Positions 17,617 through 64,000 of a stretch of DNA of 64,000 nucleotides are shown here, piece by piece. Below the pieces are notes generated by a model, which saw only the letters and a program-made list of their open reading frames with translations, was not told the origin of the DNA and made no database searches. The stretch's first letter is position 1. Every line of letters begins with the position of its first letter. The DNA is taken from contig JALRME010000009.1 in NCBI GenBank assembly GCA_026120035.1, positions 744,001 to 808,000 on the forward strand, read 5' to 3'. The translations under genes and the position numbers were made by a program. Source of the DNA: Coleophoma eucalyptorum (Eukaryota; Ascomycota; Leotiomycetes; Helotiales; Dermateaceae).

Positions 17617-19573
17617 TCACGATGCAGTTTCCTCTACAACCAAAGCGTTACCAAGGTCCCGGAGTTCGTTCTTCTTCAATTTCCCGCTTCCTGTGGTTGG
17701 AAAACTCTCACAGACTCCTTCGTCGCCTAGCCAGAAAAGATAAATTGGGACTTTGTGCCTTCCGAGGGCTTCTCTGACCCAATTCTGCAGTTCAGCTGGG
17801 GTGGGACGGGTGGATGTACTCTGAGATCTTTGCCCGTCAATAAATGCAGCAGGGACCTCGCCATATTTCCTGTCGTGGAGTCCAACAACTGCTGCTTGCG
17901 ATATGCCCGGGTGTTGTGCAAGACGCTCTTCGATCTCCAAAGGATAGATATTCTCTCCGCCTATAACTAGGGCTTAGTTTTTGTAGCGTGGAATAGAATT
18001 AAGCTTTAGTATTCCCTCGGAAACATTACCTCTAATAATGATGTCTTTGATCCGTCCCGTGATCCTGCAATATCCACGGTCATCTAGCGTCACCTCGTCC
18101 CCAGTCCTCATCCATAACGTTCCGTCCTTATCCCTGACCATGACCTCATTGGTCTTTTGGGGGTCATTAAAATATCCTACTTGAAGGTTATAACCCGACA
18201 CACATAACTCGCCTGGCACGCCTCTCGGCACGATCTCATGTTTGTCATTGATGACTTTAGCGGTCGTGTGCGGAAGGATCCTCCCAACAGTCGAGAGTTT
18301 CTCTTGCAAAGCATCGTCTACAGATGTCATAAAACTCGCAGGTGATGTCTCAGTCATTCCTGTGAGTGAATCTGGTCAGCTACATTCTCTCTACCAAAGA
18401 AACCAAAAATTTGATGGGTAGAACAACCATAAGTAATAGTTAGATCCGGAAGCCCAAATATCTCTTGCAAGCGCGCCATGAGACTAGGAGATACAGGCGA
18501 ACCTGCTGCGATACCAGTCCTGAGGTTGATCTTTCCGAGGCCTTCATGTTGACGCAGATAGTCCAACTCGGCAATGAACATAGTGGGCACACCATGCAGA
18601 CCGGTGCATTTTTCTTTAACGACAGCCTGCAGAACGGCTGCGGGATCAAAGGTTTCACTAGGCAATACAAGGGTGGCTCCGTTCGTTATACACGCTAGAA
18701 GCCCAAGGACCAGCCCGAAGCAATGAAATAGCGGGGGTGGGCAACATATACTATCCTGGTCTGTTAATTTCATCCTGTGTCCTATGAAGTGGCCATTGTT
18801 TATTATATTGCTTATCAAAGTTAGTCATTCCGATCCTCGAATAATCGAGGAATAACTCACTAGTGAGTCAACATGGCAGCTTTGGGTTCTCCTGTAGTCC
18901 CGCTAGTGTATTGAAGGTTGGCAACGTCCTGAAAATGGACCGAACCACACGCCCTGTCTAGATCTACATCGGTAATTCGACTTCCTTGAGTAACGAACTC
19001 ATCATAGAACATCGAGGATTCAGATAGTGGCTGCTCAGCCGATCTGAGAAGAACAATATTCTTAAGGCATGACACAACCGCTTCTTCACTGACACCAGTA
19101 AGTAGCTCTAGATGTGGAAGTATGCTCTTCTTGCCAATCTTTGAGGAAGTGAACAACATGCGGCATCCTATTCTAAATCAGTCTCCAAGGATAGATTATT
19201 CTAATAGTGAATTACCTGAGTGTTCAAGTGCACTCGCACATTCCTTGGGCGTATATGTATTATTCAGCACCACTACGATGGCTCCAATGAGGGCAGCCGC
19301 AAAAAATACTTCAACATAGCGCTCGCAATTGCCGGATAAAATCCCCACACGATCTCCTCGTCGGATCCCAAGGGCAAGCAAGGCTTTAGCAAGTTGTCTA
19401 CTCCGCTCATACAGCTGTTCATACGTGTACCGTGTGCCGGTCCATGAGCAGACTATTGCTTCAGAACTGGAGTGCTTGACAGCCTGTGCCTTGAGCAGTT
19501 GTCCCAGAGATAGCGCAAGTAAGGCCGGCTCCGATGGTCCCTGGATGAAGGATAGCTTCTGTAACGTTGCCAT
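17617..19573 (-). CDS. Acyl-CoA/AMP-dependent ligase
   Basis: Five exons (19216-19573, 18861-19167, 18428-18810, 18030-18359, 17617-17960) join in phase to about 573 residues. Adenylating-enzyme motifs appear in order: LQYTSGTTGEPKAAMLTH (phosphate loop), YGMTETSP (formed across the third intron), MRTGDEVTLDDRGY, GRIKDIIIRGGENIYP (across the fourth intron) and the catalytic lysine in TTGSGKLKK. These show ATP-dependent activation of a carboxylate to acyl-AMP, probably then acyl-CoA, as in fungal medium/long-chain acyl-CoA synthetases. There is no carrier or reductase domain, no obvious peroxisomal tripeptide (end ETAS) and no signal peptide. It lies 0.7 kb from the UstYa gene and 6 kb from the PKS, so activating or recycling a polyketide acid is plausible but unproven. 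Its strand matches most cluster genes. Confidence 0.9.
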
Positions 19574-20239
19574 GGCGGATCCGTAGGACCAAAGGAGTAA
19601 TTATAAATACCAATCACGGCGAGGCTCTGCGAACTCAGGCCACACGTAAAATATGGGCTCTGCTCTGCAACGATGGATGTGAATATCTTCACAAGATTCC
19701 CTCAATCGGATAAGGCACACGTGGCCAAGCAATGAATCTTACATGCAGTGAAGAGCACCCTGCAAAAACCTTTACGGTACAAATGCACCAAGTCTGTAGT
19801 AAGCAACCACTCCCCCATGCAAGCGATACGCCCTCCGCCAATTTTCCTCGTTAAAGTTTCCGAACTAGCCAATTAAATACCTCCTTCGTGCTAGTAAGCT
19901 TCATGTCCAGCTGTCTATCTTATCTTCAACTCCTATTTGCTTACGATAGTACGGAGTAGATTTGAACGGAGTAAATCTGAATGTCTGGAGGGGATTGCAA
20001 TCGCACACCGTCTTTCCACGATTTTCCTTATTCTCTCATTGCAATACAACAATTAACTACACTGGTTGGCGAAACTATGTCTTCAAGCGCTAAGCAAGGC
20101 TCCAAATTCATGGTCTCAAGACTAATAGACTTGTCATTCAAATTATAAGTGTTGGCATATATCCTTAGAGATACAAATTCGAACGGAAAGGCTACAGCTG
20201 TCCTGAAAGTACCACAAGCCTTTATTTCCCTCGATTTCT
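19574..20239. other. Intergenic, acyl-ligase promoter region
   Basis: Between two minus-strand genes; serves as promoter for the ligase and 3' region for the UstYa-like gene. No coding signal. Confidence 0.55.
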
Positions 20240-21188
20240 CTAGTCATGAGCCTCTAGGAATGCTTTCAAGTGAGAAGGCAAAGGAAAAACAGCTGCATCT
20301 GCAGGCCTTATCATTTTATCCCTCTTTGCATTCAAGTCAAGCACCATTTCCCTCTTCTGAAAATCCAATAACGCCTGGGTATTCTTGCACATCTTCGTGG
20401 TGTCAAAGTCTGGCACCGGAAATCGTTGAGTCTCGATCCAGTTGTAAGTAATGAGCTCTGTAGAGCCGGTGCACATCACATTTTGATACAAGATATGCAC
20501 ACAATGCATCCAGTGTTCCTTCTGGAAGTCCCAACGATCATCGTGGGCCACGGGGTACTCTTCTCGAAAGGCGGCTTTGCGAAGCTGGTTGACGCAGTGG
20601 AGTTGATGGTTTAGATCCATCATCGCAATGTATTTGTTGGAGCCATGGCCCCATTCTTCAGGCGCACGAACTAGGTCTGCAGGATTCTTCCCCAGAGAGC
20701 GCGCCTCCGCATCCGTGATTGTTATCCACGTAGGTTCGGCGGTTGCATGCCAGGCATCATCTGCAAATTTGGAAGGCAAGGCTCGGAACGGGTCTGGGGG
20801 AAACCCTTCGTCCATGAAGCTTCCGTTAATAGCTGTAAGAGATGCTGAGATCGGTACCTTGTCAAAGAGAGGAGCTGTAATGAGGTTAGCACTGAGTAGA
20901 TGGATTTTATGATATAAACTTACAGAACGAGGACATTCGAACGACATCTTTTGAACTAGCCTTCTTACTGAATGATGAAATGTCATGCATAACGAATAGA
21001 CCAACCACAATCCCAAGGCAGACATTCGCAATTATTGAGACAAGCAATATATAGTTTCTTGGTTGCTTGGCCTTCGGCTGTGATCCAAGAAAACTCTCAG
21101 ACTGTGCAGATTCCTCATCTGACTTCTCTAGACTAAAGTATTCCTGGCTCCGAGAAAAGAATTTTCGTGGCAACTCAAAGAAGTCCAT
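20240..21188 (-). CDS. UstYa-like (DUF3328) oxidase
   Basis: Two exons (20924-21188 and 20240-20874, intron 49 nt) encode about 299 residues. A single transmembrane helix lies at residues 46-67 (YILLVSIIANVCLGIVVGLF) after a charged cytosolic tail, giving the type II topology of the family. Both diagnostic motifs are present: HQLHC (residues 178-182, in LNHQLHCVNQLRK) and HWMHC (209-213, followed by VHILYQNVMC). In ustiloxin, asperipin and phomopsin pathways such proteins cyclise or oxidise ribosomal peptides during secretion, often at Tyr or Phe side chains (family knowledge). Its divergent neighbour is a secreted repeat precursor, the expected substrate. The longer upstream frame was rejected because the family normally starts shortly before the membrane helix. 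Some UstYa-like proteins serve other pathways, so substrate is inference. Confidence 0.93.
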
Positions 21189-22241: not shown

Positions 22242-22783
22242 ATGCAATTCCAAAACATCGTAGCCCTTGCGGCAATTCTTCTAGCATCTAGCGTTGCTGC
22301 TGCTCCGGTTGCTGGTGAGTATCAAGTTCATAGTCATAGGCTACTGCAAGTCTAAGTCCATATCTAGAACCAGCAGAGCTTTATGGCTGTGCTTCTAACA
22401 CCAAGCGAGATATCCTCGGTCGTTGCATCAAGGAACGCGAAGCTTCACCTGATCCAGCTGAGCTCTATGGTTGCGCGTCGAACACCAAACGAGACAACTT
22501 CGGTCGTTGTATCAAGGAACGTGAGGCTTCACCTGAGCCAGCTGAGCTCTATGGCTGTGCTTCTAACACCAAGCGAGACAATTTCGGCCGTTGCATCAAG
22601 GAACGTGAAGCTTCACCTGAGCCAGCTGAGCTCTATGGCTGTGCCTCTAACACCAAACGAGACAACTTCGGTCGTTGCATCAAGGAACGTGATGCTTCAC
22701 CTGAGCCAGCTGAGCTCTATGGCTGTGCTTCCAACACCAAGCGAGACAACTTCGGCCGTTGCATCAAGGAACGTGACAACTGA
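22242..22783 (+). CDS. Secreted Kex2-type repeat precursor, candidate dikaritin-like RiPP
   Basis: Two exons (22242-22314 and 22368-22783; intron gtgagt...ctag) give 162 residues. The N-terminus is a clear signal peptide (MQFQNIVALAAILLASSVAA). The rest is five head-to-tail units of 28 residues, the last shortened: PAELYGCASNTKR then a DNFGRCIKE-type half and an acidic ASPEP linker. Every unit has one Lys-Arg pair for Kex2 cleavage, two cysteines and one tyrosine. Unit 1 has DILG where the others have DNFG. Repeats differ at many synonymous sites while residues are nearly fixed (for example three or more different codon sets for GCAS), which points to selection on the peptide. Signal peptide, KR-punctuated repeats and a UstYa-like neighbour match ustiloxin/asperipin-type precursors; a plain secreted repeat peptide (KEP) without crosslinks is the alternative. 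The frame would be missed by single-exon searches. Confidence 0.85.
22370..22780 (+). repeat. Five tandem 84-bp repeats of the peptide precursor
   Basis: Units at 22370-22453, 22454-22537, 22538-22621, 22622-22705 and 22706-22780 (last unit 75 bp before the stop). The period is exactly 84 bp, so frame is kept. Differences are mainly third-position changes such as GGC TGT GCT TCT against GGT TGC GCG TCG. Confidence 0.95.
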
Positions 22784-23485: not shown

Positions 23486-25050
23486 TTATAAATGAGGAAT
23501 ATATTCTGACCAAGAAACTGTCATATACGCAGAAGACGGCAAACTCCTCAAGCCAATTACATCCTCGACAAGGATAAAAGCCCTGCATAAACAGTAGAGC
23601 GCACAAATGACAGTCATGGGAAAGAGAACTCTTAAGGGAATATTAAGATACGGATCTTGGTCCGGGGAGATGTTCCCCAATCCCTCCAACCACCGCCATA
23701 TCCTGTGCTTGAGACTCGAGGAGTAAATCCTTGGTGTTTGTGACATAGGTAGTTCGGAACCCCCGTGCGACCCGCGACCTTTCAGGATTACCTTGTGGCA
23801 ATACCCACAATAGGTGCCGCCGGCCAAGCCGAAAGTCAGTGTGAAGATGCTGACGATGCGCCATAGCAATCGTTCGGTTGGAGAAGGGAAAGTAAAATTC
23901 CACGCAAACATGAAGGTACCGCTGAAGAGGGCAATCGCAGGCGCGCATAGTAGTTCGGCCTTCAGATCCGTTGGAGGAAAGTTGTCGCTTGGGATACGAT
24001 CGTATGGTCGTGAGGTGACAGGACGTGAGAATATGGGAAGGCCCAGATTTAGCAGGATTTGTGAAAAGTAGCGCCAGATCAAGCTGCAGAACCACTCTTC
24101 ACGATGGGCGAAATCGAGAGGCGTTTTATACCACCGCATGGACGCGGAGGGGCTTTCTGTCTAGTTAAAAGGAGAAGTATCAATAAATTTACCACATGCC
24201 TTTTTAATTGTAGAATTAAAGCTGGAAATCTTACTAGTTGGTACATGTCAGAAATTTTCATCTTAGTTCTGATGATATCTGCCCGCATGATGCCAAGAGG
24301 TTTGTGGTGCCAAAAAAAGGAGATCGCAAACAACACAACGATGAAAGAGAGCGTTGTTAACTCGAAGGTGGTCAAGAAAAGGCCTTGGATTGGACGTAAG
24401 ATACAGTTGATTGTGAACCAGATGGCCTGGCAGATGGTTATAAACCTTTTGCGCCAACATTAGCTATGGTTTGCTATATCCTGTATGAGTAGAAATCACC
24501 GTGCGAGCCCATCCGCCTTGTTTTTATCTGTAATCTCCTCCACCTTAATTTGTGGGGGTTCTATATAGCCCTTCTTGACTAAGTAGTACAGCTGTTCTGC
24601 GTCAATGGGAAATTGGAATTCAGGGTAATCAGGCGCTTCGAGTAAGAAACCACCCATATCAGCAAAGAAGGCGTGAGTCATGGTCCACCCTTTCTCACGG
24701 TCCAAGTCGTGGAACTTCTATTAAATCATTAGCAGTTGCAGCATCAGAATGCTCGACGGAGTTGATACCTTCACTGAGGTTCTTGCTGAAGCCCATTGTC
24801 CCGCCGCCAACATCAGGATAAATTCAGGGCCGAGAAGTCCGATGAAAGCGAGACTTAGTCGGTCTTGAAGGATTTTCCATTGGCTGTCGTGTTTGCTAGG
24901 AATATTGGGACATACTGAAGTCCAGCAACATAAGACTATGGTTAGAATACACGATTGCAGGATGTCCCATGTTCCACGTCCGTCAGGGGTTGACGTCCAT
25001 CCTTGGGTAGTCAACTCGTTGATAGCGGGCGTAGTGATATTTGCCGACAT
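23486..25050 (-). CDS. Multi-pass membrane protein of unknown function
   Basis: Four exons (24769-25050, 24500-24717, 24235-24445, 23486-24160) join in phase to about 461 residues. Roughly seven hydrophobic helices are visible, including WDILQSCILTIVLCCWTSVC, FIGLLGPEFILMLAAGQW, FLTTFELTTLSFIVVLFAIS, LLCAPAIALFSGTFMFAW and LLWRIVSIFTLTFGLAGG. Conserved-looking polar motifs are PDGRGTWD near the start and THAFFADMGGF in exon 2. I recognise the GRGTWDI and HAFFADMGGF pattern as a widespread fungal family without known function, so no activity is assigned. It sits between the precursor and the PKS on the same strand as the PKS, making it a candidate transporter, tailoring enzyme or self-protection factor of the block. 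The small exons depend on splice calls and could shift by a few residues. Confidence 0.8.
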
Positions 25051-25814
25051 GTAATAATTGGAAGGTTCGCAGAAACTAGCAAGCTTGCAGGAAAACAACG
25101 AAGTAAAAGTCAATAAAGAGAAGGAGAGGAAAAAACGATAAGAGCAAGAGAGTAGAGTTAGAGAAGCAGGTCAAGTGGGACTTATCATGTAGGCGGTAGA
25201 TGACCGATAGAGCTACCTGCATCGTTTACCAGGAGGCATGGCTGCATACAGATATCTTATTTGATACAGGCCACATGTATGTGACCAGGGATGTTCGCCA
25301 ATCATGGGCATCATTTAGCACAAGGTTCTCGGGATTCCTTGACACCTCGAGAGAAGCATCGAACAAAAGTAAATCCAAGAGTTTCAGCCTCGCTCAAGTA
25401 GCTAAATGACAGGCCAGCATAGCACCGTTCGTTGAAGGGTCGTTGTTATCAGGTCGGTCCGTCCCGATTCGGTGGTGACTGGACGGACCGACCCGAAAAG
25501 CTAGAATGATCGCTTGCACTGACAACTTCAACTCTGTAGCCGCCCACCCTGCATGCAAGTGCCTCAGCTGTGTCAACTCCAAAGATCTAGCGCCTATTCC
25601 AGAAACTTGTCTGCATCACGAAACAACGTTCAGAGTGTGATGGCAATCCCAGTCGTTACACATAATCCCAACTGGCTATGCCAACATGTCGCGCCCTCAT
25701 GCATGGCACTTAATAAGACACGAATAATGTATTATGTATTTATATCTCGAAATTCATCTGCAGACAGTCTACTAGAAAGATCAGACTTAGTCACTCGTCT
25801 ACTCACATTTGAAT
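25051..25814. other. Intergenic between PKS 3' end and membrane-protein start
   Basis: No coding signal. Contains a perfect 13-bp inverted repeat at 25452-25493 (listed separately) about 400 bp upstream of the membrane-protein ATG. Confidence 0.6.
25452..25493. repeat. Perfect 13-bp inverted repeat with 16-bp spacer
   Basis: GGTCGGTCCGTCC at 25452-25464 is the exact reverse complement of GGACGGACCGACC at 25481-25493. Each arm contains an internal GGACGGACC/GGTCGGTCC repetition. It lies between two cluster genes and could be a dimeric regulator site or a transcript hairpin. Confidence 0.85.
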
Positions 25815-28800
25815 CTAGCCCAACTTAACAAATTCGCTTTGCAGTGCAATTTTCTCTGCCAAAGTTCTCAGACTCTTACTTTGCAAAACATCAAATATCG
25901 AGACATCAGCCTTCAACTGTCGTGAAACCCAGTTTCGAAGCTCAGCGGCTACGAGGGAGTCAACTCCGTAAGAGGCAAGCGACTCGTCGAAGTTGATGTC
26001 TGCTTCGGCGATCATAAAGTCCTGGGAGAGCTTGCCGGCAATTGCTTTGCAAATGAGACTTGCTGCATCTTGCAAGGTTTCCACTCTTGCGAGCTGCGCT
26101 GGGAGACCTGAATCTTGATTCTGTTTACTATCAGCAGCTTCTTCTGCAGAAACCATCTGGCGGAATATCGAGAACTTTGCATCGGTGGACCATGGTGTGC
26201 CTTCATTCTCTTGGCCCAGTCCAGAAACGATTTGGCTTGCCTTGAAATCTGGAATTGGATCAATTATCGCTGACTCAATCATGGAAAGTAGCTGTTTCTC
26301 CTTGATGAAGACGTGCCCAAGCTTGTTAAGTCGTGTAGCTAGCTCCTCGTTCTCGGCCACATATCCGACATCGCCTATCACTCCAAGGTCCAGTGTAACC
26401 CCAGGCATACGCTTCGATGCTCTATGGCGTGCAACTGCATCAAGGAACGTTGATCCTGCTGCATAATTGGCTTGTCCTGGGTTACCACCTATTCCAGCAG
26501 CAGAGGAGAGCATTATAAAAAAGTCTATGCCATCCAAGAAGTGCTTGTGGAGGTTCCAAGTTCCTTTGACCTTCGGATCTAGCGCCTCAACATATGAATC
26601 ATAAGACATCTGTTCAAAGATGGAGTCCTGAAAATACAAGTCAGTTCATGTTAGGAATGCCGTAACCGTACACGGGGGTTCAAACCTTGAGTGCCATTGC
26701 AGCCTGTATAACGCCGCGGATTGGAGGCATTGAGACAGCACATTTTCTCAAGATCTTGCTTAATTGATTTCCATCAGCAATATCACAGCTGAAAACTGCA
26801 ACGTTACAACCAGCTCTCACAAGCTCATCTGCAAAATCTCTTGCAGCGCGCCGCGTCAACCCACTACGGGAGAGAAGAATGAGATTTTTGACTCCTTGGG
26901 TGACCATCCATCTAGATATTGACCTGCCGATCCCGCCAAGTCCGCCAATGATCAGATAAGATGCATTATCTTCAAATCGCGCGGTCGAGCGGTGAGGGTA
27001 GACCTAATTAGATTTAGCCATTTATTCATGCCATCTTAAGAATTCATACCTTCACATTATCCTCTTTGCGTGGCTCAATGACTACCTTGCCTCTATGCTT
27101 TCCTGACTGCATCAAACGAAATGCTCGCTCAATTTCAGACATGGAGAAAGTCGTGATTGGCTTCACAGCATGGATAAGGCCAGACTTGAATAACTCCATA
27201 CAGTCACCCAGGATAGTTGATAGTATTGAAGGTTTGTACTTCATAACATATGTCAAATCGATCGATGAGAAGGTTACGTTCCGTGTGAATGGTGCCATTT
27301 CAAGGTGGCTATTCAACTCGATATCCCGTTTCCCGATCTCGACAAATCGTCCGAGCATAGCAATACAATTCCATGTTTCCTGCAGCATTTCGCCAGCAAG
27401 ACAGTTCAGTATCACATCCACTCCTTTCTGGTTTGTATCTTCCATGATCTGTCTTGCAAAAGCAGTGGTTCTGCTGGAGAAGATATGGTCTGGATCTATA
27501 TCATAGGTTTCGATTAGGAAGTCTCTCTTCTCTTTTGTGCCGACGGTGACAAATATTTCAGCCCCCAGGAGACGAGCCAGCATTATAGCTGCTTGGCCGA
27601 CACCACCAGCTGCAGCATGTATCAGAATCGTCTCTCCTTTTTGCAACTGTGCTGTGTTGTAAAGACAGTAATAAGCAGTGCAAAATACCATGGGCAGAGA
27701 TGCAGCAACGTCGAAAGGCATGTCTTCCGGAATCTTGCCAACTGTCTCCCATGGGACTCGAACCAAGTTTGAATAGTTTCCTTTCATCATGACGCAAACT
27801 CTATCTCCGACGCGATACTCGGGAGGGACTGCTTTTCCAGTCTGAGTAATCACTCCGCTGCACTCATAGCCCATGACGGTCTCATCCAGTTGCCCCATGC
27901 TCACCATAATATCTCGAAAGTTGAGCCCAAAGGCTCTAGGCTCAATTTCTACAATATCATCAATTATTGGTGTAGCCATCGTGCCATCGTCAACGAATCC
28001 AAGTGTATCCAATAGTCCTGGAGTCCCAATCTTCATCATGAGTGGCCGACCAGCTTGATAGAACGGCTCTAGCTGCGGAGTTAAACTGTCTTCCTGGTAC
28101 GAGAAGATTTTGTTCGTGTTTACATCTTCCAATAATCTGGGTATCAGTATTTTCCCGCCTCTTTGAGCATATTCCCAGTCGATCATCGTCTTCAGGGCTG
28201 TTGAGTCGATCGCAGCTTTGAGGATGTTTATGATGGCCGAAGACGTTACTGAAGTAAAAGAATCTTGCAGTGGATCAATATCAAGAGTCAAATATCTTGT
28301 ACCGGAATTTTCAGCTCTTAGGACGCGGAAAAGACCAGTTGCCAGACTGCTTTCAGGCGCTTCACACTCTATAACTCCCCCATGTGTGATCCATAGCACG
28401 GATTTGGCAGAGATTAGAGTATTCTTTAGACTTAGAAACTCTTCTGCAGTCAAATTGGCCAACAGTGGCTTTACAAGCTCCGCCATCACGACAATCATTT
28501 TGCCCGTATGATTTCGACCATCAAGAGAGGCGATTTCTGGCTGATTGCCGACAATAGATGCCAAACTAGACTCAAAAGTTTGCCTCCACGACTCTGGTGG
28601 ATATCTGTCGCCATAAATAAGTGATATTGACGGTTTCTTGGAAAATTCATCAGAGTTAGGTTGGGATTCATGCCTGACAGCAGAGATAAAGCTTGGAACG
28701 ATGGCATCGATAGTGAGCCCATCTTCCATGAGAAATGCCGATAACAGCTCGTCATCTTTGCTTGGGCATCCATAGTCCTGGATCATGATCAACCTCCCAT

Positions 28801-31800
28801 TTAACTTAAGCAGCTTTCGGATGTTTGGTAAGGAGAGCTTGAGAGTTTCTGTAGGCTCCGATGTTCTGGCTACAAGTACTAGGTCATATGAGTCCGGTTC
28901 CAGACCCTGTTCATGAGGGTCACGTAACGTATCAAAATGCATCGTACGAATAGAATTCTTTTGGTCCTTAAGCATTTCCGTGGCCGAAGGTTCAGCATCC
29001 ACTTGATTATATGCAATATCAAAGTGAGGTAAGGATCCGGTCTTGGCAGCAGCTTTTTCTAAAGTATCTAGTATTGCGGCCGACATCAAAAAGCCAGTAG
29101 CATCAAGTCCAAGGTATCTTGCTCCTGGATACTTGTGTGTATGCCGTCGAAGGTACTCCTCGAGTTGAGAACCATTGTCGAGGTTCGTGTAGGTTTCAAG
29201 CCCATTCAGCTCCGCGTCGAGCTCCCAGTGCATCTGGAAACAGAGCTTTGTTTGCTCAGAAGTATCATTCTCTGTTGCCGTATTCCCAATTGTCTCACAG
29301 CGGAACCCTGCAATTTCCATGACTGGAGAAGAGATGCCATCGCTATTATGCGCAACAGAAATCGAGGAAACGACGCTCTTAGTCGATATTTTGTCGATGA
29401 CAGAGGTCGCTTGTAACCGACTTCCAGGTTTACTACAAATATCAGTGGATATGGAGATTGACTTAAAGGATTTGGGAAGACGAGTCGACTTTTTCGTTTT
29501 ATTTGACTCAGTTAACAGTACCGGATAGATCGCTTGCAGGACTGTGTCAAATGTGGTCGGGTGAATGATATGTTCGTGTTCGAATCCGTAAGGCATCAGC
29601 GAAGCTGTATCCGGAATCAAAATAGTCGCAAGAGATTGGGTAGGTGCAACTTTAATATTCTCTAAATTCTGGAATGCTTTCCCATGACAAATTCCGTCGG
29701 ATTTGAGCATTTCATACACTTTGGAAGAGTCGTATGACTTAAAAGCCGTAGTGTCAGCCGCATGGTGGACACTAGAGGACGCATCTCCAATTTTTAGCCC
29801 GTTGCTCCAGTTCGAATCCTCTGTCCTGGATCTGAATTCTGATGAGATGAAGCCTGTACAGTGCTCGGTCCACTTGTCATCCTGATCTGGGGCGACCGAG
29901 TGAACATGAAATTGGTACCAGCCTTGGGAAGAAGGGAGTTTATCTGCTGCTGGCCTGAGAGACAATTGTAGCTCAATGCCTTCTGTGGTGTCTGGAATCA
30001 GAGCCGCACTCAAAACCTCAATATCACGCAGCCTGTATTTAGCAATGTCTTGGTTGTCTTTTGCAAATGCTTGTCGAAATCCCTCAATCGCCATGCAGAT
30101 GTACCCGGCCGCTGGGTAGATGAATGAACCTTGAATAAGATGATCTCGAACCCAAGGTATGTCTGCTGTGCGAATAATATGACGCCATGTAGGTGATAGT
30201 GGATTCGAATTTGTAGCCGGCACTCCAAGAAGATCATGTGGAGCACCTTTCCTTAGACGATGTCGTCTGTTTAAATGAGACTCATGCCAGTGTCTGATTT
30301 TATGAGACCATGGATAAGAGGGCAAATCCGCAAGAACTTTCAAATCGGGCTCCCTGCCCGGGAAGTTCAATCTTCGTACATCGACCCGATATCCGATACC
30401 TAAAATAGTGCATGCCATCTCTTGCATAGTCTTTTCTGCATCTTCCTTTCGGGTCAGGCATGACGCGTACGGAATTGTTAGATCTTTCAACTCTGGCAAT
30501 CTGAAAATTTGTCGGATTGGTCCAGCCAAACCACTATGCGGACCAATTTCGAGGATAGCATCTATTGCTGGTTCAGATGCTCCTACGGATGAGTGTGATT
30601 GTCCCAGAACCATATTGCGAAGAGAATCTGTGAAAAGAACAGGTCTTATCATATTTTGTATCCAATACTCGGGTCCAAATACATCTGAACTAGCGACAAA
30701 GTCCCCAGTAACTGAAGAGGAGTAGGTTACCTTGCCAGACCATTCTTCGGTCTTCAAATGATGTTTATGTAGAAGCTTTCGATAGTCATTTGCAATAACT
30801 TCCATATGATGGGAATGATATCCTGCATCTACGGGTAGTCTACGGACAAAGACACTATCTGCTTCAAGAAGCTTCTGCATCTCATCAATGCCGCCAATGT
30901 CTCCGGAGACAGTGACACTATTAGGACTGTTGATGCACCCGACCACAATCTTACCAGATGTGACACACTTGATATAGGCTTCTGCATCTTCTCTTGAGAG
31001 CCCGACAGCAATCATAGAGCCTTTGAGACCGGGTGAGTTGATCTGTATATTAGTGGTAACTAGGCCCCTAAAATATGAGACAGTGATAGCCGACTCCAGA
31101 TTCAGAGCTCCAGCAGCATATGCTGCTGCAACTTCGCCGCTCGAGTGGCTAGTAACCGATGTAGGTGTTATGTCCCATGACCGCAACAGATTGACCAGCG
31201 AAACTTGTAGTGCTGTACATAACGGCTGGCTGTACACAGCTTCGTTCACAAATGAAGACTTAGCATCTTTGTGCAATTCATCTGTGCCCAGATTAGCTGT
31301 TAATTTCACGAAAGAAAATCAATTTTTACCCATAATGGACCAGCTTGCTCCTATATTCTTCATATGCACGTCTGCAGCTACCAGGGTCTCCCTGAAGACT
31401 GGGTATGCTTTTATCAATTCCCGACCCATAGCATACCATTGAGATCCTTGACCTGTAAACACAAAGCCAAGTCTGACATTCTCCTTGCGCCGTGTTGCCT
31501 TGAGATTACTCTCTTCTAGTGAACTAACGAGTTCATTCACTGATGCTGCTGTTGTCGATATTGACCATGGAAATACTGTACGTCTTTCAGCAAGTGTATA
31601 TGCAAGATTATCCAAGACTTCATTCTCTCCCAGATATTTTTGTTCTTTAAGGTAAAGTGCTAGGCTCGTAACCAGGCCACAGGTAGCATCTTGGTCTTTG
31701 GCACTGAAAGTGAACAATCTACGTCGAGTAGGTATAAGGCTCTGGCTCTCAGTCATTTGAGAGCTTGTAGAGGTACTTTTAATCGACATATTCGGTGCAA

Positions 31801-34542
31801 GAGATAAAAATTGCTCCAAAGATTCCATGATAACGTGTCCATTTGTCCCACCATACCCAAATGAATTCACAGAAACTCTGCGAGGACTCCCCTTGGGCCA
31901 TTGTTCTAATGTCTGGGGTAGCTGTTAAATCGTTAGTTATTGTATCGACCTTTGTAGACATGTAATTTGCACTCAAGGCATTTGTGACTTATGATGAGTA
32001 TTATCACGAGATTGGATAAAGCTCAGTGGTTCCTAGTACAGCTTTGGCTTTTTTTATACTCAACAAACGTACCTTAAGTTTCCATTGTGAGAACGGTATC
32101 TTGGAATTTGCTTTCTCAAAATTGATGGAAGGGGGTATCGATCCTTTCTCAAGTACTAATGCAGCCTTTATAATCCCTGCAAGGCCGCTGCCAGCTTCCA
32201 AATGACCAATGTTTGTTTTCACAGATCCAATATAGACAGGTTTGTCAACAGATCTACCTTTTCCGAAGACAGATGCAATTGCACCTGCTTCTAGAGGGTC
32301 TCCAGCCTGTGTTCCCGTACCGTGAGCTTCGACATATGGAGTTTCGGCGGGGTCAAGTCCGGCGGCAGTATAGCAAGATTTGATGAGATCTTCCTGGGCA
32401 GACTGACTTGGTAGTGTGATACCATTTGTCTTGCCATCTTGGTTGAGGCTCGTCTGAACCAACACAGCCCGAATATTGTCGCCATCTTTCAAGGCATCCT
32501 CTAATGGTTTTATGATTATACTTGCAACACCTTCGCCACGGCCATATCCAGAAGCACGATGATCAAAGGCATAAGATCGTCCATCTGGGGACACAAAGCT
32601 GAGATGGTTAGGCAAGACAAGAAAGAGAACAAGGATATACGTACCCAAAGCTGCTCATCGCTGTGATCATATCAGGATTTAGCATGAGATTGTTCCCGCC
32701 AATTATCGACATTTTTGACTCTCCTGATTTCAAGCTTTGGCAGGCTAAATGTAGCGCTACAATACTTGTGGAACAGCCAGTATCTACAGTCATGCTGGGG
32801 CCTTTAAGGTCAAAGAAGTATGATATTCGATTAGAGAACATTGCGGCACCATTCCCCGTGTTGAAATATCGTGGAAGAGTCTCAATATCACGAAACAAAC
32901 TTTCATGGTAATCTCGGGCAAAAATTCCAGAATAGACAGAGGTATCTGAATTCACAATTGAATCAAGCCTCAGCCCAGCTATTTATCGTCAGTGACTTAT
33001 AATAGTAATGTGTAGGAATGCACTCATACCATTTTCGAGAGCTTCATATGTACACTCCAACTGGAGACGAAGTTGAGGATCCATTGCCTATGTATGAATT
33101 AGTATCTGATTTCTTCGGATGGCATTGAAGCAGACATACCTTAGCTTCTTCGAGAGTGATATTAAAGAAAGGCGCATCAAACAGCGAGATATCTTCTTTC
33201 AGAAAGTGTGCACCTCGTACGTTTGTCTGATCAATAAAGTCAACTTAATTTCCCAAGTGCCAAAAAAACATACTTACACTTCCTTCTCGTGCTCCATTAG
33301 GATGGAAAAATGATTTCTGGTTGAATCTAGAAGCAGGAATTTCCGACCAGGCATCAGAGCCAGCTGATACCATCTCCCAAAGCTTTTCCGGACTTGTAGC
33401 ATCCCCCGCAAACCTACATCCCATCCCAATGATTGCAATCGGCATATTACTGTCTTTGGAAGCTGTCTTGGCTGTGGAGTAATTCTGAGCTTTATTCACC
33501 AACCCCGGTTGGGCATGTTTGAGTGGTTCGGCCGCCACCTTGTCTGACACAGGGTCAGATGGCACGGGTGTGTAATGTGGTGATCTGAGTAACTTCTCGA
33601 ACCAGTACAAGCCTTGTAGATTTAAGAGGCTGATAGATGAGAGCTGAATAATGGCTAGCCATGCAGGAAGTGGGGGTATACTATACAAATTGGTAGATTC
33701 TAGATGAGCTAGTTTAGTTGACTGAAGTAGATAGGTTACTGGTATTTTTGGGTCTTGCTCCTGAATTGCATTAAAAATATCTCTGGACATCAAGATCTGA
33801 AAGTAGATTCCAGGGATGAGACGTCCAAAAAGATAGGTTGCGAGAAGAACATATCGGTTGTAGGTCCGTAGTGTTGATTGCCGAAAGCCGTTCTTGTCGA
33901 GAAACTTCTGAATGTTCAAAAAGATATTGGGGAACTCCATTAGTAAGAATGCAGGACAGTAGTATAAAGCAAATGGACGCTATAAGGATCAGCAATAATT
34001 CAAGTATTTAGAAGTCATAGTAGACATACAAACCCAAGAGCACATAAGATCAAGCAGGCTGTTCCATGGAAGACAAAGATCCAGCCCTCGATATGCCTGT
34101 GAACTATTTCTTGACCAAGGTGCCATAAGAAGTATCCAGTAGCAATTCCCAATGCGGAACCAGTCATACTTTGATAACCCCAGATCCTCTCTTGCCAAGT
34201 CATATCCCTTTCTGGGCTATTCGACCAGAGAAATGAAATTGCTAATGAACTGTTTACCACTGATTGCACCAAGGAGACGGCGCAGACATCCCAGTCGAGC
34301 TTCAGTACCCCCGATAGTTTTGGATATCTCCATGGTGACAGTCTGGCAGAGAGAAACGGGAGGATATATCGATAGAGCATCTGGTAGAATGCTGTCATGA
34401 GAAGAACTTGGTGTATGTGAAGAGGGAGGGCAGGTAAAGACAGGAGGTCGGCAAGCGGTTGCGTCAGGTCTCGGATGATGCTGCTCCATCCTTGAGACTT
34501 TGCATATAAGAAACCAGCGTCAGAGAAATTGGAAGCCGCCAT
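25815..34542 (-). CDS. TLC-domain / highly reducing polyketide synthase fusion
   Basis: Ten exons (34030-34542, 33278-33979, 33140-33226, 33030-33087, 32645-32978, 32073-32598, 31330-31921, 27050-31296, 26686-27003, 25815-26627) keep phase for 2,729 residues. Residues 1-300 are a multi-span TLC-type membrane domain ([71 protein letters not shown]). After a Pro/Ala linker the same exon runs into KS at about residue 350 ([11 protein letters not shown]). Then: KS Cys in VDTGCSTS (about 522), EAHGTGT and KTNIGH; AT ([16 protein letters not shown], about 990); DH ([16 protein letters not shown]); a short methyltransferase-like region lacking a glycine motif; ER ([10 protein letters not shown]); KR ([17 protein letters not shown]); and ACP (YGVDSL). 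There is no release domain. The product should be a reduced chain; the enzyme is probably membrane-bound. Intron 7 would be only 33 nt. Confidence 0.88.
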
Positions 34543-35420: not shown

Positions 35421-37233
35421 ATGGCCGACCAAAATGACCCGTTGCAAAAGGCATCTGGTCACGCGACCAAGAAGTCTCGAGCCTTCAAGTTTGCTTTTGT
35501 GTCGTTATGTGCTTGTAATTTCATCTCCATCCTCGATACTGTCATTATCGCTTCTGCTTTGCCAGCTATAGCACATGCTCTCAATGCAACAAGTAATCAG
35601 GCATATTGGTGTGGTACAGGGTTTCTCTTTGCTGAGGCTGCTCTGCAACCTGTATACGGTGCTTTGTCGGAGATCTTTGGAAGGAAGATCTGTCTTATTA
35701 TTGCTTTGAGTACCTTCACAGTGGGGAGCTTACTATGTGCTGTAGCTCAGAGCATCTCCTGGCTCATCGCTGCACGTGTAGTGAGTGCATCTTTTCACCT
35801 ATTTCATTAAAGCCGTACTCACGTGCTATTAGGTCCAAGGCCTTGGTGCTGGTGGAATAAGTGTCTTGGTCACCATGATTGTAGCCGACATGGTGGCTCT
35901 ACGTGAGAGAAGCAAGTATATTGGTATTATGGCTTTAGGAAGTGCTGTCGCCTTGGTTTCTGGTTACGTACTCGGTGCAGCGATTGCTGGAAGGTCGACT
36001 TGGCGACTGTAAGTCAGAGAATTGTTCGCTTTGTACAGGGCTAACCGAGGGCAAGCATCTTCTATATCAATCTTCCAATCTGTATTCCGTCGCTACTATG
36101 CATCATGAAGTTCCTCAATCTTAGGACGACTACTCTGTCTGTGAAAGAAAATCTCAGACGAGCAGACTGGTTAGGAATGTTTATCCTCACTGCTTCGATG
36201 ATCTCACTCCTTTTCGGCGTCACCAGCGGCGGTGTTCTATATCCATGGGGATCAGCAAACGTACTAGCGCCACTTATCATTGGAGCAATTGGAACTGTTC
36301 TATTTTTTGTGTTTGAGGGTACCATTGCAAAACACCCCATGATGCCCCTTAGACTCTTCGGCAATCGAACGTCAGTGTCTGCATACTTTACGTCTTTTGT
36401 CCTCGGTCTCACACTCTGGGCTATGGAATATTACCTGATATTATATGTAAGTGAATGTGCAACAAAGATAATGCATCATCACTAACATGCTGGTCCAGTT
36501 TCTGGTAACCCGACAAAAGTCCCTCCTTGGCGCCGCAGTTGATATCCTACCAGGAACAGCTACAGTACCAGTCTCAGCAGCGGTCGCAGGATTTGTGATA
36601 GCATCAACCCAACGCTTTCGAAATATCAACAGCATTGCACTAATTTTACTCACGACCGGACTAGGGCTAACGTCGCTTATACGCCCAAATTCCAACAAAG
36701 GCGTTCAGTTTGGATTCCAGGTCCTTTACGGCATCGGCGGTGGCATTCTCTTCCCAGGAAAACAGATCGCGGTCCAAGCATCGCAAGCTGACGAAGACGT
36801 GCCCATGGGAACTGCTCTGACAACATTTACCATCAGTCTCGGCGAAGCTTTCGGAGTGGCCATTGGCGGGTCCATCTTCCAGAATGTCTGGAACAGTAGG
36901 GTCGCCAGTAGCCACCGTGAAGGCTCTATTCCTACAACCTATATCCTTTCCCATCAAGAGGCCGAGCAAGCAGGGAGCCTGATTAAGGATTTTCCCGAGG
37001 ATGTTCAGGTTGTCTATAGGAGGATCATGTCCGAATGTATTAATGCGATCTTCATCGCGCTGGCGGCATTTGCTGCTCTGGCTGCGCTGGGCAGTTTTGT
37101 GTCCAAAAATATCAGCCTTGATCGTGATTCGACAAGCGCACAGGAATTTGTTGAGGTTCAGAAGGTGGAGGCATTGGAGTTGGGTGTCACTACAGTGGGG
37201 TCAGGCGTAGTGCCGAAAGGAGTCGAGAAGTGA
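35421..37233 (+). CDS. MFS drug/H+ antiporter-type exporter
   Basis: Four exons (35421-35780, 35833-36008, 36056-36446, 36499-37233) encode about 553 residues. The first transmembrane helix holds the DHA-type LDTVIIASALPAI motif; GALSEIFGRK is the loop 2-3 signature and RVVQGLGAGGI lies in helix 4. GSAVALVSGYVLGAAIAG matches the antiporter helix-5 motif. Around 14 hydrophobic helices are visible, as in the DHA2/14-span group that exports fungal toxins and drugs. Divergent placement next to the PKS suggests it exports the pathway product; substrate is inference. The charged C-terminal tail (EVQKVEALE) is cytosolic. Confidence 0.93.
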
Positions 37234-63488: not shown

Positions 63489-64000
63489 TTACGCAGCCGG
63501 TGGAGCAACATCTTCATCTCCAACCTTTCGTCGACGAACCTCTGTGTCGTCCACTGCAATCTTCTGTGAGCCATTTGCACCAGTGCTACGCATAGCTACA
63601 GCCTTCTCCTTGGTCTTGCGTTCCTTGGGTGGTTGGAAGCGCTTTCGTACCGTCTCAATCATCTTGGCGAACCAGAAGAAGTTGAGAGTGTTGAGAATGA
63701 CATTGCTTGCAAGATAGGTCAGGGCAAGCCAAAGTGGAATGTATTCTTCGCCAGCATATTTCATGATTTCATTGTGGATTGGCATGGCGCTCTTTCCAGC
63801 TGCAGCGTCCATAGCAGCATTCGTGCTGTTGTTGAGAATATCGAGGTGAATGCCTGCTGCTGCTGGTTTGTGGTGAAGCGCAGCCCATACATCTTGGTAG
63901 ACGCGTACAGATTGATAGGTTCCCCAGACCAGGCGGCAGGAGAAGAACATAGCAAGTAGAACAAGGCCATTGTATAATTGTGCTCGGGATCCGGTCATAT
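63489..64000 (-). CDS. TLC-domain membrane protein, 3' part (cut by window edge)
   Basis: The last roughly 170 residues of a gene whose 5' part lies beyond 64000. The frame is open to the edge; the Met at 63998 is probably internal, because the conserved domain should start further upstream. Visible are LYNGLVLLAMFFSCRLVWGT and YIPLWLALTYLASNVILNTL followed by NFFWFAKMIETVRKR, the last membrane spans of a TLC (TRAM-LAG1-CLN8) domain, then a Lys-rich cytosolic tail ending VAPPAA. TLC proteins act in ER lipid metabolism or sensing. The same spans, in order YN.xVLLA, RL and WLA...LN..WF, occur at the end of the TLC domain fused to the PKS at 34.5 kb, marking the two as relatives. Confidence 0.82.
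   Translation of the reverse strand, partial: MTGSRAQLYNGLVLLAMFFSCRLVWGTYQSVRVYQDVWAALHHKPAAAGIHLDILNNSTNAAMDAAAGKSAMPIHNEIMKYAGEEYIPLWLALTYLASNVILNTLNFFWFAKMIETVRKRFQPPKERKTKEKAVAMRSTGANGSQKIAVDDTEVRRRKVGDEDVAPPAA

Follow-up and report, generated by a model that had tools for sequence, protein, structure and literature searches.

The window analysed here is a stretch of 64,000 nucleotides from the fungus Coleophoma eucalyptorum (contig JALRME010000009.1, positions 744,001 to 808,000), and the gene in question, on its minus strand, joins a TLC membrane domain to a highly reducing polyketide synthase (HR-PKS). The analysis confirms, at the level of sequence, that the two are encoded as one protein chain, because the TLC part has no stop codon of its own and the identical in-frame layout recurs in P0001, P0002, P0003 and P0122. 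The usual view of fungal HR-PKSs is that they are soluble and depend on partners in trans for starter supply and release. A synthase with a built-in membrane domain resembling an acyltransferase would, if this is what the gene encodes, unite lipid metabolism and polyketide assembly in a single chain, and a TLC fusion might also serve as a tool for putting polyketide synthases (PKSs) on membranes.

The reading frame and its relatives

In the hand-built splice model, translation of the fusion gene (25815..34542, minus strand) begins at an ATG at 34542 and gives 2724 amino acids up to a single terminal stop, which ends at 25815. Its 10 exons (34030-34542, 33278-33979, 33140-33226, 33030-33087, 32645-32978, 32073-32598, 31330-31921, 27050-31281, 26686-27003 and 25815-26627) are separated by introns of the GT..AG kind, all 46-58 nt long except for one of 151 nt, and the MAA.. 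N-terminus of the modelled protein is common to P0001 and P0002, in agreement with the chosen start. The key piece is exon 33278-33979, bounded by introns 33980-34029 (GTATGT..TTATAG, 50 nt) and 33227-33277 (GTAAGT..GATCAG, 51 nt). The preliminary description of this DNA had placed the last TLC spans and the KS start in this exon without a stop between them, and both the splice model and Pfam bear this out: the exon carries the C-terminal half of the TLC domain, a linker and the beginning of the KS, with zero stops.

The TLC domain and the KS start were searched for with the first 453 residues of the protein. Residues 83-303 (33584..34296, minus strand, split by intron 33980-34029) match PF03798 with an E value of 1.8e-24 and 87.2 bits (cut-off 24.6), and it is the joining of exon 34030-34542 to exon 33278-33979 that yields the complete profile, 1-198 of 198. 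The KS match starts at residue 351 (E 3.4e-24), and M350, immediately N-terminal to the KS start motif, lies at 33445-33443, where the preliminary description had put it. The interval previously given as 45 residues is indeed short and free of stops, but measures 47 residues between the Pfam matches. The linker itself (residues 304-349; 33446..33583, minus strand) is poorly conserved, with no stop and no good intron; the exon has a single GT(A/G)NGT, and this one (33417) falls within KS coding, and no good splice pair is found in the linker. Its 46 codons would be open by chance in 10% of order-1 random sequences with the composition of the flanking non-coding DNA and in 25% of those with the composition of the linker; openness alone is weak evidence for a fusion.

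As for the layout in other organisms, residues 1-350 were compared with proteins of PKS length (1551 candidates, E <= 0.01), and three were retrieved: P0001, from Coleophoma cylindrospora (BP6252_00193; 86% identity over 96% of the query), P0002, a PKS from Xylogone sp. PMI_703 (57% over 86%), and P0003, from C. crateriformis (BP5796_01023; 84% over 43%), whose gene model begins inside exon 2 and hence is without exon 1. A search among TLC-sized proteins gave 21, including the metagenomic fragment P0122, in which Pfam recognizes both TLC and KS. The check for TLC and KS in one chain that the preliminary description had proposed thus returns three fungal proteins and this fragment, and no difference in layout was seen among the three fungal PKSs. 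Across the linker, the window protein aligns without indels to P0001, P0003 and P0122 (67, 70 and 46% identity, respectively), whereas the linker of P0002 has a different length and 18% identity over 39 alignable positions.

The synthase part singles out the same proteins. In the PKS search (7995 candidates scored, 6798 passed, best 120 listed), P0001, P0002 and P0003 lead, the score drops from 3405 to 2578 at the following match, and they are the sole carriers of PF03798 among the best 120 of 6798. When 64 of 121 sequences were placed in a quick tree, the four fused PKSs came out together, with a support of 100 in the Shimodaira-Hasegawa-like approximate likelihood-ratio test, apart from the squalestatin tetraketide synthase (SQTKS; P0050, P0064). 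The four fused TLC domains also group together, at 94/90, which is below the support mark of the tool, in a tree where the branches of human TLCD1 and yeast YPR114W are very long. The earlier statement that no PKS with this layout has been described holds in so far as the text searches made found no description; the layout is nevertheless not unique to this genome, since three other fungi have it in publicly deposited proteins, which carry no specific name and are called simply "hypothetical protein" or "putative polyketide synthase".

Kinship and putative active site of the TLC domain

What kind of TLC domain is this? The closest relatives are standalone fungal TLC proteins, with 32-39% identity for P0124-P0134 and 30-43% over all 18 matches other than P0121-P0123, and the comparison of profiles is unambiguous (E 8e-54). 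One such Ale2-like gene lies about 30 kb from the fusion on the same strand, from 63654 to 64000 and beyond (C101:807654-808587, minus strand), with 33-37% identity to the fused TLC; an intron that separates "..GF" from "RPF.." occurs both in the fused gene and in this standalone gene at C101:808 kb. Judged by these comparisons, the fused domain is closest to the fungal proteins of the group of yeast Ale2/YPR114W and human TLCD1, and derives from TLC proteins of this kind.

According to passages of PMC11838012, TLCD1 and yeast YPR114W/Ale2 are lysophosphatidylethanolamine acyltransferases, with acyl-coenzyme A (acyl-CoA) as the donor of YPR114W. In TLCD1, the same passages report, the acyl chain is carried on H117 as acyl-histidine, and in the D98A mutant the acyl-enzyme accumulates and the acceptor does not release the chain. 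The sequences of both proteins, translated from those printed in that paper, were aligned with the fused and standalone proteins. Conservation was counted over 15 standalone rows (13 from databases and 2 of this genome; the fragments P0135-P0138 and P0141 were left out) and compared with the fused-type rows: the window protein, P0001, P0002, P0003 (no exon 1), P0121/P0122 joined, and P0123 (exon 1 only), counted as fused-type though its own fusion is not shown.

On this map, the nucleophile position H117 of TLCD1 corresponds to His159 in "VFHG" (34066..34068, minus strand), which is histidine in 15/15 standalone and 5/5 fused-type rows, in TLCD1 and in YPR114W. Glu186 (33935..33937, minus strand) occupies the position of E145 and is also kept, as is Arg224 (33821..33823, minus strand), a conserved TLC arginine found in 15/15 standalone and 5/5 fused-type rows, within a stretch aligned with "HCRMV" of CLN8. 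D98, in contrast, is replaced by His141 (34120..34122, minus strand): the aspartate of "FLWD" is present in 15/15 standalone rows, and histidine in the 5/5 fused-type rows with this exon. Among the 18 non-fused proteins aligned, this aspartate and the motif histidine are both invariant columns. Gln93, where TLCD1 has H54, is not a telling difference, because active YPR114W has glutamine there too. Other changes are fixed as well: W196 is lysine in 5/5 fused-type rows, and the motif "STPxLNxHWF" of the standalone fungal proteins has given way to a different sequence in the window protein. In all, 68 positions are at least 90% conserved in the standalone rows, of which 35 are the same, 25 changed and 8 mixed in the fused-type rows.

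The fused domain shares with Ale2/YPR114W, TLCD1 and FLD-1 the TLC domain, the histidine at the nucleophile position and the glutamate, and with YPR114W a single-histidine motif (VHG in the yeast protein); those proteins are not fused to a PKS. Since the acceptor-side aspartate is missing, we call it a relative, and not a member, of the TLCD1/Ale2 type. The kept and changed positions are the pattern expected if a donor half had been retained and an acceptor half altered, and would also be compatible with an anchor. The domain nonetheless appears to be under selection in its altered form, since its identity to the Xylogone protein (59%) is near that of the PKS part (63%), with the linker at 18%.

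A ceramide synthase was considered and rejected. The Lag1 HH..(H)D..D motif is absent, one histidine being present in "FHGTACL", as had been noted from the letters of the DNA, and the nearest relatives are others; ceramide synthases (Lag1/Lac1, CerS6) and CLN8 make up another subfamily, and the window TLC is the one that is fused. From the same lack of a double histidine, the preliminary description had doubted any N-acyltransferase activity. The lack of the Lag1 pair does not make acyl transfer doubtful, given that single-histidine YPR114W is active and His159 is kept; the doubt is right only in part, the position that differs being that of the acceptor-side aspartate.

The synthase and possible roles of the membrane domain

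The synthase part (25860..33442, minus strand) is a highly reducing type I PKS with KS, AT, DH, a degenerate C-methyltransferase (MT), ER, KR and ACP in this order. The assignment rests on Pfam matches in exon 8 of the window gene (AT, DH, ER), on whole P0001 and P0002 (all domains) and on the KS search above, together with active-site motifs, those of KS, AT, DH, ER, KR and ACP being intact in the window protein. In the MT (28784..29146, minus strand), which is optional for an HR-PKS and does not appear functional here, the S-adenosylmethionine (SAM) motif E(I/V)G(A/G)GT of relatives is replaced by GLDATG; it is lost in 4/4 fused and kept in 10/10 non-fused rows, out of 45 of 121 sequences aligned and 14 listed. 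Pfam finds no MT in exon 8 or in P0001, whereas P0002 still gives weaker MT matches (best 1.4e-7). Nor did Pfam find a release domain in exon 8 or in whole P0001 and P0002.

SQTKS and LovF-type HR-PKSs have the order KS-AT-DH-MT-ER-KR-ACP and likewise no thioesterase. They differ from the window protein by its N-terminal TLC domain and its lost SAM motif; SQTKS is a characterized relative among the best 120 PKS matches (2126 bits). According to passages of PMC8902786, related pathways move the chain by acyltransferases that are separate proteins; LovD does so for LovF, and for SQTKS it is the ligase Mfm9 together with Mfm4. Additions of domains to HR-PKSs are already known: the strobilurin PKS is reported to have an unusual C-terminal part, and P0083, from Hyphodiscus hymeniophilus, has an extra part before its KS (motif at about residue 416) with a match to the aldo-keto reductase family PF00248, which may be a true fusion or an artefact of the gene model.

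Tethering of the synthase to a membrane is likely, and follows almost directly from the presence of a complete TLC domain in the same chain; the suggestion of the preliminary description that the TLC would place the enzyme on a membrane is thereby supported as probable anchoring. The protein would consist of a TLC domain with seven expected membrane spans, a short linker and a soluble HR-PKS, and if the C-terminal end of the TLC faces the cytosol, as is expected, the PKS would work there with CoA substrates. With His159, Glu186 and Arg224, the TLC could retain the half-site that takes an acyl chain from a phosphopantetheine thioester, while the aspartate that TLCD1 needs to hand the chain to its acceptor has become His141, amid other fixed changes nearby. 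An acyl-His159 intermediate might then form and its chain be exchanged with the fused PKS. What the sequences show is the single reading frame, the conservation of the fusion, its nearest relatives and the residues that are kept or changed; the topology of this protein, the acylation of His159 and the direction of transfer are inferred, and so is catalysis, from the kept nucleophile site.

Does the chain enter or leave the synthase by this route? Loading, in which the TLC would prime KS/ACP with a membrane-derived acyl group, is possible because the TLC is placed before the KS, as SAT domains are. Release, in which it would take the finished chain from the ACP and give it to a new acceptor, is possible because no other release enzyme was seen: a Pfam scan of 20 frames from the 10-39 kb region, short of a full annotation, showed no thioesterase or soluble acyltransferase. 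That the gene encodes a membrane-tethered PKS whose TLC holds an acyl group on His159 and exchanges it with the synthase, in either direction, has in our judgment an even chance of being right. A narrower version, which we regard as rather unlikely, is a lipid-primed HR-PKS: His159 would be charged from membrane acyl-CoA, and His141, in place of the acceptor aspartate, would redirect the chain from phospholipid to a PKS thiol. Such a domain would be a membrane counterpart of the SAT domain, the acyl-handling domain directly before the KS of fungal non-reducing PKSs; the SAT domain is soluble and of an unrelated fold, and the analogy concerns starter loading, not homology. Since the natural change affects the very residue whose loss locks TLCD1 in the acylated state, the prediction is that acyl-histidine forms, that transfer to lysophospholipid fails and that the acceptor is new.

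Several points weigh against acyl exchange at His159. The 25 changed positions out of 68 also fit a domain that has lost catalysis and serves as an anchor, and H195, present in 15/15 standalone rows, is glutamine in 5/5 fused-type rows. D141H may simply be inactive, D98A of TLCD1 being a dead end of acyl transfer. The fused rows amount in effect to two branches, Coleophoma-like and Xylogone, so that their "uniform" changes may be single ancestral events. Matches of hhalign to ceramide synthases are weak (probability 10.6% with the standalone profile and 0.15% with the three-sequence fused profile), and the structure model is that of a standalone relative with 39% identity and not of the fused TLC. 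The main rival is a catalytically dead TLC that would serve as lipid sensor or membrane anchor and hold an otherwise ordinary HR-PKS at the endoplasmic reticulum beside membrane partners. It is a serious possibility, if short of an even chance: D141 and H195 are among the changed positions, the non-fused PKSs among the best 120 have no TLC domain, and a membrane or vesicle location of such enzymes, including a viriditoxin PKS, is a known theme in a passage of PMC10816013. Yet every fused-type row that covers His159, Glu186 and Arg224 retains them despite many other changes, and the replacements of Asp by His and His by Gln are identical in both branches rather than scattered.

That the TLC and the PKS are two genes transcribed apart, by way of an undetected intron or an internal start at M350, is very unlikely. 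At least 7 listed PKSs are annotated as starting with a methionine right before the KS motif, the window protein, P0001, P0002, P0003 and P0122 each have a methionine there, and the linker could be open by chance at the 10-25% given above. However, such a TLC gene would have no stop codon and the linker offers no good splice pair, the same frame is found in Coleophoma and Xylogone models from apparently different projects and in one metagenomic contig, and the linker has no indel among the window protein, P0001, P0003 and P0122. Neither a stop ahead of 33445 nor a hidden intron, which the preliminary description had named as signs of separate genes, is supported by the sequence. The least likely explanation, and a highly improbable one, is self-protection, with the TLC as a resistant copy of the target of the product, like the cluster ceramide synthases of fumonisin producers. 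Ceramide synthases are reported to be tied to self-resistance in these producers, and on C71 of this genome a ceramide-synthase-like gene does adjoin a PKS; but the TLC of the fusion, having no Lag1 HH and other nearest relatives, does not belong to the ceramide synthases, and its active site is altered, not preserved. The resistance copies that we know of are, besides, separate genes.

Neighboring genes and a second locus

The neighbor scan brought out an AMP-binding ligase, a UstYa protein and an MFS transporter. The transporter gene (35421..37233, plus strand), divergent from the fusion and a probable cluster member, matches PF07690 above the cut-off on its first frame and below it on the last. 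The acyl-CoA ligase-like gene (17617..19600, minus strand), with PF00501 on three frames and PF13193 on one, is a possible cluster member.

Between the PKS and a precursor gene lie membrane-like protein frames (23486-25170, minus strand), three of which have no Pfam match, two of these having no NCBIfam match either. Beyond them, 22242-22783 (plus strand) encodes a small precursor-like protein of 162 aa with a signal-like N-terminus and five repeats around "PAELYGCASNTKRDNFGRCIKER.ASPE" with KR sites, from an 84-bp unit present 4.8 times. It adjoins the UstYa protein at 20243-21031, and the pair looks like a cluster for a ribosomally synthesized and post-translationally modified peptide beside the PKS, presumably of the dikaritin type.

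Elsewhere in the genome, at C71:46841-52999, another PKS stands beside a separate TLC gene of the ceramide-synthase type, with the HH motif and its own stop, and a frame judged by eye to be like an alpha-oxoamine synthase lies alongside. This arrangement of separate genes resembles the clusters for sphinganine analogues.
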